Source of the DNA: Ridgeia piscesae | Lineage: Eukaryota; Annelida; Polychaeta; Sabellida; Siboglinidae | Reading direction: 5' to 3' | Assembly: GCA_025642075.2 (NCBI GenBank) | Contig: JAODUO010000536.1 | Coordinates: 10,001-74,000, forward strand | Length of the DNA stretch: 64,000 nucleotides | Part shown: positions 26,601 through 32,600 of the stretch, in pieces | How positions within the stretch are numbered: the stretch's first letter is position 1 | Layout: the number at the start of each line of letters is the position of its first letter | Translations under genes and position numbers: made by a program | The notes under the pieces: generated by a model | What the model was told of the DNA's origin: nothing | The model's input: only the letters and a program-made list of their open reading frames with translations | The model's database searches: none

Positions 26601-29600
26601 GAAACTGGTATATACAATGTGCACTGAAAATGAAGGCCAGACAAATTTTATGGTCCTCCCCATCCTCTGAAGGACGCTTTTCAGAAACTTCCATCAGGGA
26701 GACGTCTAAAAGTTCCACTAGCTAAAAAATACCTTTTCAAGAAATCGTTTATACCCTCTGTCATTTTAATTTTAATGTACTGTGTACTTTTTTATTCCAT
26801 ACACTTATTGTATTGATTTATTTAATCTTATTTATTAACAAATTTTAGTAAATATTATAAATATTATATTGTGTCTTATCAAAGAACGTTTTAATAAATA
26901 TTACTTATTTGTATATTTAATTTATTTACTTAACCCATGTTAATGCTGATTAGTATTATTATCATTTTAATGTGTTTTATCAACCATATATGGATCACCA
27001 ATCTTATTGCTGGCATTTTAATGTGTAACTGAAGAAAAATTTCTGACTGTAATGTGATGTTTTAAACGGACAATAAAGTGTTTTGAATCTTTATATGAAC
27101 TATGTGATGTGACCCCCCTCTGAAGTGACACCCCTCTCATGTGACCCCCTCTGTTACAGTACCTGGACTGTCTGTGGGCCCAGCTGTGCAACATGCAAGG
27201 TCAGAAGTGGATGGAGAAGCAGATTCTGCGGCCGTACCTGGCGTTTGACGGCATCTTGTCGGAGGCACTCCAGCATACCCTGCCCCAGATTATCCCACCC
27301 TCCCATCATGACGAGGCGGTCTACCCCCTACCATCGGTCATCTTCCGCATGTTCGACTACACCGATGTGCCAGAGGTGTGTGACCATGTCTATACTGCAT
27401 TCATTCTATTAAGCATACACTTATAATAACACATATTTGAGATGCGAAAATATGTCAGAATATGCTTTCTAATAAACATACACCCATTTCGTTAGTGTTT
27501 TACTTTTTTCTCCAAAATCGACTGTGACAATTATTTTGTGTTGATGACCAAACCGTCCCCGTGGGTAATGCGTAATGTATTTTAGGAATTGGTGACCATA
27601 TCAGATTACCACTATCGCAGCTGGTACTCGGTAGAGAATTTGTTGCGTTCATCTGTTGTGACACGTGTGAGTGTGTTTTAGGGTCCAGTGTTGCCAGACA
27701 TGACACATTAGTGGGTTTTAGGGTCCAGTGTTGCCTGGCATGACAAGTGTGAGTGTGTTTTAGGGTCCAGTGTTGCCTGACATGACAAGTGTGAGTGTGT
27801 TTTAGGGTCCAGTGTTGCCAGGCATGACAAGTGTGAGTGTGTTTTAGGGTCCAGTGTGGCCTGGCATGACAAGTGTGAGTGTGTTTTAGGGTCCAGTGTT
27901 GCCTGGCATGACAAGTGTGAGTGTGTTTTAGGGTCCAGTGTTGCCAGGCATGACAAGTGTGAGTGTGTTTTAGGGTCCAGTGTTGCCAGACATGACAAGT
28001 GTGAGTGTGTTTTAGGGTCCAGTGTTGCCTGGCATGACAAGTGTGAGTGTGTTTTAGGGTCCAGTGTTGCCTGGCATGACAAGTGTGAGTGTTTTAGGGT
28101 CCAGTGTTGCCTGGCATGACAAGTGTGAGTGTGTTTTAGGGTCCAGTGTTGCCTGGCATGACAAGTGTGAGTGTGTTTTAGGGTCCAGTGTTGCCTGGCA
28201 TGACAAGTGTGAGTGTGTTTTAGGGTCCAGTGTTGCCTGGCATGACAAGTGTGAGTGTTTTAGGGTCCAGTGTTGCCTGGCATGACAAGTGTGAGTGTGT
28301 TTTAGGGTCCAGTGTTGCCAGACATGACAAGTGTGAGTGTGTTTTAGGGTCCAGTGTTGCCGGGCATGACAAGTGTGAGTGTGTTTTAGGGTCCAGTGTT
28401 GCCTGGCATGACAAGTGTGAGTGTGTTTTAGGGTCCAGTGTTGCCTGGCATGACAAGTGTGAGTGTGTTTTATGGTCCAGTGTTGCCTGGCATGACAAGT
28501 GTGAGTGTGTTTTAGGGTCCAGTGTTGCCTGACATGACAAGTGTGAGTGTGTTTTAGGGTACAGTGTTGCCTGGCATGACAAGTGTGAGTGTGTTTTAGG
28601 GTCCAGTGTTGCCTGGCATGACAAGTGTGAGTGTGTTTTAGGGTCCAGTGTTGCCTGGCATGACAAGTGTGGGTGTGTTTTAGGGTCCAGTGTTGCCTGG
28701 CATGACAAGTGTGAGTGTGTTTTAGGGTCCAGTGTTGCCTGACATGACAAGTGTGAGTGTGTTTTAGGGTCCAGTGTTGCCTGACATGACAAGTGTGAGT
28801 GTGTTTTAGGGTCCAGTGTTGCCTGGCATGACAAGTGTGAGTGTGTTTTAGGGTCCAGTGTTCCCTGGCATGACAAGTGTGGGTGTGTTTTAGGGTCCAG
28901 TGTTGCCTGGCATGACAAGTGTGAGTGTGTTTTAGGGTCCAGTGTTGCCTGACATGACAAGTGTGAGTGTGTTTTAGGGTCCAGTGTTGCCTGGCATGAC
29001 AAGTGTGAGTGTGTTTTAGGGTCCAGTGTTGCCTGGCATGACAAGTGTGAGTGTGTTTTAGGGTACAGTGTTGCCTGGCATGACAAGTGTGAGTGTGTTT
29101 TAGGGTCCAGTGTTGCCGGGCATGACAAGTGTGAGTGTGTTTTAGGGTCCAGTGTTGCCTGGCATGACAAGTGTGAGTGTGTTTTAGGGTCCAGTGTTGC
29201 CTGGCATGACAAGTGTGAGTGTGTTTTAGGGTCCAGTGTTGCCTGGCATGACAAGTGTGAGTGTGTTTTAGGGTCCAGTGTTGCCTGGCATGACAAGTGT
29301 GAGTGTGTTTTAGGGTCCAGTGTTGCCTGGCATGACAAGTGTGAGTGTGTTTTAGGGTCCAGTGTTGCCTGACATGACAAGTGTGAGTGTGTTTTAGGGT
29401 CCAGTGTTGCCTGGCATGACAAGTGTGAGTGTGTTTTAGGGTCCAGTGTTGCCAGGCATGACAAGTGTGAGTGTGTTTTAGGGTCCAGTGTTGCCAGACA
29501 TGACAAGTGTGAGTGTGTTTTAGGGTCCAGTGTTGCCTGGCATGACAAGTGTGAGTGTGTTTTAGGGTCCAGTGTTGCCTGGCATGACAAGTGTGAGTGT

Positions 29601-32600
29601 TTTAGGGTCCAGTGTTGCCTGGCATGACAAGTGTGAGTGTGTTTTAGGGTCCAGTGTTGCCTGGCATGACAAGTGTGAGTGTGTTTTAGGGTCCAGTGTT
29701 GCCTGGCATGACAAGTGTGAGTGTGTTTTAGGGTCCAGTGTTGCCTGGCATGACAAGTGTGAGTGTTTTAGGGTCCAGTGTTGCCTGGCATGACAAGTGT
29801 GAGTGTGTTTTAGGGTCCAGTGTTGCCAGACATGACAAGTGTGAGTGTGTTTTAGGGTCCAGTGTTGCCGGGCATGACAAGTGTGAGTGTGTTTTAGGGT
29901 CCAGTGTTGCCTGGCATGACAAGTGTGAGTGTGTTTTAGGGTCCAGTGTTGCCTGGCATGACAAGTGTGAGTGTGTTTTATGGTCCAGTGTTGCCTGGCA
30001 TGACAAGTGTGAGTGTGTTTTAGGGTCCAGTGTTGCCTGACATGACAAGTGTGAGTGTGTTTTAGGGTACAGTGTTGCCTGGCATGACAAGTGTGAGTGT
30101 GTTTTAGGGTCCAGTGTTGCCTGGCATGACAAGTGTGAGTGTGTTTTAGGGTCCAGTGTTGCCTGGCATGACAAGTGTGGGTGTGTTTTAGGGTCCAGTG
30201 TTGCCTGGCATGACAAGTGTGAGTGTGTTTTAGGGTCCAGTGTTGCCTGACATGACAAGTGTGAGTGTGTTTTAGGGTCCAGTGTTGCCTGACATGACAA
30301 GTGTGAGTGTGTTTTAGGGTCCAGTGTTGCCTGGCATGACAAGTGTGAGTGTGTTTTAGGGTCCAGTGTTCCCTGGCATGACAAGTGTGGGTGTGTTTTA
30401 GGGTCCAGTGTTGCCTGGCATGACAAGTGTGAGTGTGTTTTAGGGTCCAGTGTTGCCTGACATGACAAGTGTGAGTGTGTTTTAGGGTCCAGTGTTGCCT
30501 GGCATGACAAGTGTGAGTGTGTTTTAGGGTCCAGTGTTGCCTGGCATGACAAGTGTGAGTGTGTTTTAGGGTACAGTGTTGCCTGGCATGACAAGTGTGA
30601 GTGTGTTTTAGGGTCCAGTGTTGCCGGGCATGACAAGTGTGAGTGTGTTTTAGGGTCCAGTGTTGCCTGGCATGACAAGTGTGAGTGTGTTTTAGGGTCC
30701 AGTGTTGCCTGGCATGACAAGTGTGAGTGTGTTTTAGGGTCCAGTGTTGCCTGGCATGACAAGTGTGAGTGTGTTTTAGGGTCCAGTGTTGCCTGGCATG
30801 ACAAGTGTGAGTGTGTTTTAGGGTCCAGTGTTGCCTGGCATGACAAGTGTGGGTGTGTTTTAGGGTCCAGTGTTGCCTGACATGACAAGTGTGAGTGTGT
30901 TTTAGGGTCCAGTGTTGCCTGGCATGACAAGTGTGAGTGTGTTTTAGGGTCCAGTGTTGCCTGGCATGACAAGTGTGAGTGTGTTTTAGGGTCCAGTGTT
31001 GCCTGGCATGACAAGTGTGAGTGTGTTTTAGGGTCCAGTGTTGCCTGGCATGACAAGTGTGGGTGTGTTTTAGGGTCCAGTGTTGCCTGGCATGACAAGT
31101 GTGAGTGTGTTTTAGGGTCCAGTGTTGCCTGGCATGACAAGTGTGAGTGTGTTTTAGGGTCCAGTGTTGCCTGGCATGACAAGTGTGGGTGTGTTTTAGG
31201 GTCCAGTGTTGCCTGGCATGACAAGTGTGGGTGTGTTTTAGGGTCCAGTGTTGCCTGACATGACAAGTGTGAGTGTTTTAGGGTCCAGTGTTGCCTGGCA
31301 TGACAAGTGTGGGTGTGTTTTAGGGTCCAGTGTTGCCTGGCATGACAAGTGTGGGTGTGTTTTAGGGTCCAGTGTTGCCTGGCATGACAAGTGTGGGTGT
31401 GTTTTAGGGTCCAGTGTTGCCTGGCATGACAAGTGTGAGTGTGTTTTAGGGTCCAGTGTTGCCTGACATGACAAGTGTGGGTGTGTTTTAGGGTCCAGTG
31501 TTGCCTGGCATGACAAGTGTGGTTGTGTTTTAGGGTCCAGTGTTGCCTGGCATGACAAGTGTGGGTGTGTTTTAGGGTCCAGTGTTGCCTGGCATGACAA
31601 GTGTGAGTGTGTTTTAGGGTCCAGTGTTGCCTGACATGACAAGTGTGGGTGTGTTTTAGGGTCCAGTGTTGCCTGGCATGACAAGTGTGGGTGTGTTTTA
31701 GGGTCCAGTGTTGCCTGGCATGACAAGTGTGAGTGTGTTTTAGGGTCCAGTGTTGCCTGGCATGACAAGTGTGAGTGTGTTTTAGGGTCCAGTGTTGCCT
31801 GGCATGACAAGTGTGAGTGTGTTTTAGGGTCCAGTGTTGCCTGGCATGACAAGTGTGGGTGTGTTTTAGGGTCCAGTGTTGCCTGACATGACAAGTGTGA
31901 GTGTGTTTTAGGGTCCAGTGTTGCCTGGCATGACAAGTGTGAGTGTGTTTTAGGGTCCAGTGTTGCCTGGCATGACAAGTGTGAGTGTGTTTTAGGGTCC
32001 AGTGTTGCCTGGCATGACAAGTGTGAGTGTGTTTTAGGGTCCAGTGTTGCCTGGCATGACAAGTGTGAGTGTGTTTTAGGGTCCAGTGTTGCCGGGCATG
32101 ACAAGTGTGAGTGTGTTTTAGGGTCCAGTGTTGCCTGGCATGACAAGTGTGAGTGTGTTTTAGGGTCCAGTGTTGCCTGGCATGACAAGTGTGAGTGTGT
32201 TTTAGGGTCCAGTGTTGCCTGGCATGACAAGTGTGAGTGTGTTTTAGGGTCCAGTGTTGCCTGGCATGACAAGTGTGAGTGTGTTTTAGGGTCCAGTGTT
32301 GCCTGGCAGTCACGCGATAGAGCGCTACCTCATTGAGGATCAAGTGACCCACATTCTCCGCTCCAACCAGCAGGAGAGAAAGGACTGGTGAGTGCCCTCA
32401 CTCAATTTATTACGATTACATTTTTATTTATTACACTATTTAAATTCATGGAAGGATTTTGCTGTAATTTATTATAAAAAAAATTATTAGTCTTAATTAA
32501 CTAATGAATGCCTACTATTTTTTCCCATTTAATATTACATTCTTGTGACTACCACATGCGTGTTGAAGGTTCACTGCCTGCCAGTTTGTGTCTAGTTACG

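Follow-up and report, generated by a model that had tools for sequence, protein, structure and literature searches.

A very long mirage-type minisatellite across the intron 9/exon 10 junction of NCBP1, most likely tolerated by splicing

The "mirage" minisatellites of amphioxus are tandem duplications of an intron/exon boundary, described in Adh3 and in the globin genes BflGb6 and BflGb9 (PMC3087553). PMC3902484 adds TnC and likens repeats in PGBD5 to mirage minisatellites, and the authors of both papers state or suggest that splicing of the amphioxus Adh, globin, TnC and PGBD5 genes is undisturbed by the repeats. Here we describe an array of 110 such units in intron 9 of NCBP1, the gene for CBP80, in a 64-kb window of genomic DNA (contig JAODUO010000536.1, positions 10,001 to 74,000 of the forward strand; coordinates below are those of the window). 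The array is a very long mirage-type case in a new animal group, and we consider it likely that it is a junction-spanning minisatellite of this type past which normal splicing to the true start of exon 10, at 32290, is mainly kept.

Two further systems bear comparison. The variable number tandem repeat (VNTR) in intron 18 of human ABCA7 has a 25-bp unit in about 12 to 427 copies and starts with the GT of the exon-18 donor; retention of one unit gives a minor isoform (about 2%) that is unaffected by VNTR length (PMC5954066). It is an intronic minisatellite with a copy number similar to that of the NCBP1 array, it too takes in a real splice site, and in ABCA7 a repeated site is seen in use as a minor isoform. 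It differs in lying on the donor side, whereas the NCBP1 array lies on the acceptor side; its length has moreover been measured to affect exon-19 skipping and expression, and it is associated with disease. Intron gain by tandem genomic duplication, as in potato RdRp (PMC4974935), is alike in that genic sequence copied in tandem can supply splice signals, but the NCBP1 array copies the junction of an existing intron and nothing marks intron 9 as new. Among the matches listed in the open-licence literature we found no lophotrochozoan junction-spanning minisatellite, only the amphioxus cases and the human donor-side analogue, and a lophotrochozoan case would widen the range of such elements.

We mapped the exons of NCBP1 by tblastn with a CBP80 sequence. 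The resulting model has 23 exons and forms a single open frame of 790 amino acids that starts at the ATG in position 14620 and closes with a stop codon whose last base is 53679, and the translated exons 9 and 10 match the human CBP80 of PDB entry 1h6k (E = 8.8e-42). The exon 9/10 junction falls after residue 303 of 790 (residue 288 of the 775-amino-acid query used for Pfam), and the model and the CBP80 match together confirm the gene identity, exon numbers and phase 0 junction proposed in an initial annotation made from the sequence alone.

27160–27375, plus strand: NCBP1 exon 9, donor GAG/GTGTGT; its last base ends codon 303 (phase 0)
27659–32289, plus strand: junction-spanning tandem array; exon 10 is preceded by 104 units of 42 bp and 6 of 40 bp, 110 in all
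32290–32387, plus strand: NCBP1 exon 10, 98 nt, donor CTG/GTGAGT; the 42-bp unit takes its exonic half from the first 19 nt

Among the 120 listed of 722 protein matches, the best relative of the window NCBP1 is that of Lingula anatina (74% identity); the protein of Branchiostoma lanceolatum is 62% identical. In a tree of 33 rows, the window protein and 32 of the 120 listed matches, the window protein lies inside a fork of 26 rows (support 100/98) whose named rows are lophotrochozoans. Within that fork it belongs to a group of seven rows with two named annelids, at a support of 88/91 that is under the 95/80 mark, and Owenia, another annelid, is placed outside the seven. The window NCBP1 is thus that of a lophotrochozoan, perhaps an annelid, and not that of an amphioxus.

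Tandem Repeats Finder (TRF) reported the repeat at 27659–32308, with a period of 42, 111 copies and 97% matches. The unit consists of the last 23 nt of intron 9, comprising a branch-like TGAC, a T-rich tract and TTTTAG, and the first 19 nt of exon 10. The last unit runs straight into exon 10, whose own start forms the 111th junction copy, and the array is contiguous with the authentic boundary. There are 15 unit types, the commonest accounting for 56 of the 110 units, and the first unit is a unique, degenerate type of 40 bp. The acceptor AG is retained in 108 units, with TTTTAT in the other 2. We refer to the array acceptors as decoys; 84 match the true acceptor at all 23 intronic nt and 53 at all 42 nt. 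Compared with the first 19 nt of exon 10, 75 units show no mismatch, 30 show one and 5 show two. On the donor side, AAGT is followed by GTGAGT in 92 units, GTGGGT occurs in 16 and GTGGTT in 1, one unit has no such donor, and the distance from the array donor to the next acceptor is 15 nt.

Most of the anatomy proposed in the initial annotation holds: about 110 copies had been claimed, a number now qualified by an exact internal duplication, and the TGAC about 20 nt before the AG is present in the consensus unit. Its claim of decoy acceptors with the sequence of the true one also stands (84 of 110 over 23 nt), whereas that of a microexon is weak. Its wording was too strong in places. The start of exon 10 is shared by the units, but 35 of 110 differ from the "exact" 19 nt, and the "consensus donor" is consensus only in its intronic half. 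It had not recognized that the array is of the known mirage kind, that five other arrays lie at acceptors of the gene, or that 1.5 kb of the array are duplicated exactly.

The likeness to the amphioxus mirages lies in the tandem duplication of a boundary and in the many units bearing splice signals; mirages of both 3' and 5' boundaries are known, and the units of amphioxus Adh3, at 10–72 bp, span a range that includes 42 bp. The known cases are from cephalochordates, which is a matter of range and not a defining property, whereas the window protein groups with lophotrochozoans. The copy number differs as well, about 110 in NCBP1 against 6 and 3 in the two haplotypes of amphioxus BflGb6.

We compared splice-site strength with matrices built from 20 acceptors and 21 of the 22 donors of NCBP1 (intron 1 excluded), which are rough. 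The acceptor score is 5.4 for 85 of the 111 junction copies, the true acceptor among them, in comparison with a median of 4.5 and a range of 0.8–13.4 for real acceptors; a few junction copies that follow 40-bp units score below 0. Since the decoys are nearly identical to the true acceptor, the choice among them must rest largely on features outside the unit, that is, on exon 10 past base 19, on its donor, or on order along the transcript. The array donor AGT/GTGAGT scores 2.8, against a median of 7.6 for real donors and 10.6 for the donor of exon 10, and lies below 20 of the 21 real donors, the sole lower one being GTC/GTATCC. Of 1,079 other intronic GTs, 11.4% reach the same 2.8. An overlapping donor, CAA/GTGTGA, scores higher (4.7) and would give a frame-shifting exon of 25 nt. 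GTC/GTATCC, the modelled donor at 35022, is very poor (−2.5) yet fits the frame, and is either a model error or an unusual donor.

When a usable decoy is read through to the exon-10 donor, a premature stop follows in 108 of 108 cases, because the junction is in phase 0, the unit length is divisible by three and the acceptor reads TTT-TAG. The stop comes after 13 codons for 100 of the 108 decoys and after 9, 27, 74, 75 or 102 codons for the other 8. Exon 10 is 98 nt long, and its skipping therefore shifts the frame. An intact AG, a stop-free segment of 27 nt and GTGAGT or GTGGGT are kept in 106 of the 110 units, so that an in-frame insert is possible on paper. These outcomes agree with the truncation 13 codons on, the phase 0 segment coding for the nine residues GPVLPGMTS and the different fate after 40-bp units that the initial annotation had predicted; as an interpretation it is partly supported. 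On the minus strand, long open stretches cross the array between 29731 and 32397 (889 codons in one example), as follows mechanically when the period is a multiple of three.

Part of the array is an exact internal copy.

27865–30851, plus strand: internal exact duplication, 1,479 bp that recur at a lag of 1,508 bp with zero mismatches

The order of unit types repeats over 34 units at a lag of 36 units, and without the duplicated block about 74 units are left. The block is either a recent duplication or an assembly error and may inflate the copy number; the window shows a single allele.

In the history that we propose, tandem duplication of a 42-bp segment at the intron 9/exon 10 junction would have been followed by expansion through slippage or unequal exchange. 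Later a block of about 36 units would have been duplicated once, if that block is not an assembly error, and selection acting on exon 10 would have preserved the last copy, the true junction. Exon 9 would be joined mainly to 32290 since the body of exon 10 and its strong donor follow that copy only, as expected under exon definition, and decoy pseudo-exons would be hard to recognize, since their weak donor lies 27 nt downstream and leaves 15 nt to the next acceptor. Transcripts in which an upstream AG was now and then chosen would carry a premature stop and be removed by nonsense-mediated decay, with low leakage. The 23-exon model of 790 amino acids is intact and 74% identical to the Lingula protein, and correct splicing therefore presumably dominates; regular splicing of NCBP1 is likely undisturbed, and the array is most likely tolerated rather than used. 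Several points weigh against this reading. The exon-10 donor serves equally for decoys up to about 200 nt away from it, and exon definition alone therefore fails to explain how the last AG is preferred to its neighbor 42 nt upstream. The roughness of the matrices is seen in an AG 7 nt inside the exon that scores 9.1 and in the score of the modelled donor at 35022. In human ABCA7, a longer array raised exon-19 skipping, and in BA10 brain tissue the canonical form was outnumbered by alternative ones in 90% of cases (PMC5954066), so junction arrays are not always harmless. The same system, in which increased skipping of the following exon and reduced expression accompany longer VNTR alleles on the donor side, lends some weight to an array that is active in splicing, where decoys would compete measurably and array length would tune NCBP1 output via poison products or exon-10 skipping. 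The sequence shared between decoys and true acceptor (84 of 110 over 23 nt) and the premature stop from every usable decoy fit that account, but the array donors are weak, RNA structure is not unusual (z = 0.47) and the amphioxus cases are reported as normally spliced (PMC3087553, PMC3902484), and we consider such a role unlikely.

Inclusion of some copies as in-frame microexons, which would add GPVLPGMTS to longer isoforms of CBP80, was the reading of the initial annotation and appears highly improbable. The segment with its two sites is kept in nearly all units, and the insertion point lies between the Pfam matches on the 775-residue query (MIF4G at 19–227; MIF4G_like at 333–460, from profile position 64). 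A functional microexon would be expected to have good sites on both sides and intron room, whereas the donor here, at 2.8 against 7.6, is weaker than almost every real one, the competing donor that would give a frame-shifting 25-nt exon has the better score, and only 15 nt separate the donor from the next acceptor, although introns could still extend to more distant sites. The string GMTS does not occur in the 120 relatives listed out of 722 matches, among which the window's own species is not recognizable. A different alternative concerns the length of the array, and is compatible with the tolerated minisatellite that we favor: the exact 1.5-kb block could be an assembler loop and the true array about 74 units long. 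Identity over 1,479 bp at a lag of 1,508 bp, in an array that as a whole mixes 15 unit types, speaks for this, but a recent unequal exchange would look identical and about 74 junction copies are left either way; we regard inflation by the assembly as possible rather than probable.

We also considered how decoys could be hidden. Masking by RNA structure was rejected: for 266 nt comprising the array end and exon 10, 136 of 200 shuffles fold at least as well as the real sequence. Silencing by RNA-binding proteins is a lead. Of motifs preferred by hnRNP A1, RBFOX and TDP-43, we counted 109 copies of UAGGGU (true site included) and 90 of GCAUG, which does not occur at the true start of exon 10, and found no UGUGUG in the array. 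The 110 same or near-same acceptors upstream of the true one provide a natural competition assay in an essential RNA-processing gene.

Intron 9 is not the only intron of NCBP1 with an array at its acceptor. We counted 14 intronic arrays with a period of at least 9 bp in TRF, merging overlapping rows and excluding dinucleotide repeats, the exonic array at 47058 and any array that lies beyond the gene; they total 14,905 of the gene's 39,060 bp. Six of the 14 end at most 20 bp from an acceptor or cross it (Fisher P = 0.0011, in a test that assumes independence and uniform placement), the intron 9 array and the following:

27105–27153, plus strand: degenerate 15-bp array of 3.1 copies, intronic only, whose end lies 6 bp upstream of the exon-9 acceptor
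36090–36644, plus strand: 17-bp array that runs up to the acceptor of the exon at 36645; CTTGTCAACTG from the exon start is present in two units
40005–42206, plus strand: 51-bp array reaching the acceptor of the exon at 42207, with TGGCAAG counted 43 times
42905–43294, plus strand: 9-bp array, intronic only, whose end lies 5 bp upstream of the acceptor of the exon at 43300
48382–52775, plus strand: 23/34-bp arrays whose end lies 13 bp upstream of the acceptor of the exon at 52789

The excess at acceptors persists without the intron 9 array (5/13, P = 0.011) and is stronger among arrays with at least 10 copies (5/8, P = 0.00022; 4/7, P = 0.0035 without intron 9), while the same test for donors gives P = 0.43; 8 of the 14 arrays are not near an acceptor. 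Sharing of exon sequence was scored against 552 control exon 30-mers, which overlap one another. It is clear for the 36090 array (11/11 bases, score 22, reached by none of the controls), the consensus unit of which is without an AG at the corresponding place, and weak for the 40005 array, whose unit aligns across the true junction (score 19, reached by 1.8%). Sharing is unsupported for the arrays at 27105, 42905 and 48382–52775, whose scores are reached by 96, 38 and 17% of controls, respectively.

As a tentative and rather doubtful generalization, acceptor junctions may be a preferred birthplace of minisatellites in this lineage, with 3' splice-site sequence (branch site and pyrimidine tract) or local co-transcriptional processes seeding duplications that sometimes include the first exon bases, and supplying runs of decoys from which new exons or introns can arise. 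If so, NCBP1 intron 9 would be its most pronounced instance and would offer a natural test of how, apart from local sequence, one AG is chosen among 111. The lean of the NCBP1 arrays toward acceptors makes such a mutational bias testable genome-wide.

The 14 intronic arrays include four short ones, one per line:

14965: short array
16566: short array
25132: short array
52930: short array, beginning 27 bp past the donor at 52902

A 20-bp array of 78 copies (33075–34638) begins 39 bp past the donor at 33035. Outside NCBP1, a CCDC124-like gene lies on the minus strand (58655–55617), with four stretches that match a human sequence at E = 5e-6 or better; a 45-bp array at 56477–57101 sits between two of its exons and abuts neither. 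An open frame of 801 codons (4456–6858) runs from a coding-like stretch into an 18-bp array at 4795–6851. A comparison with phages and plasmids gave no match to the window, as expected. With arrays masked, the hexamer TGTCAC/GTGACA ranks second in enrichment over the window, at 65 occurrences where base composition predicts 19.3; we considered it as a transposon-like end motif. Related TGAC/GTCA cores are found in several arrays and near intron ends, and in 21 introns the opening 60 bp contain TGTCA 9 times and the closing 60 bp 13 times, where the window average predicts 4.1, counts to which array-bearing introns contribute.

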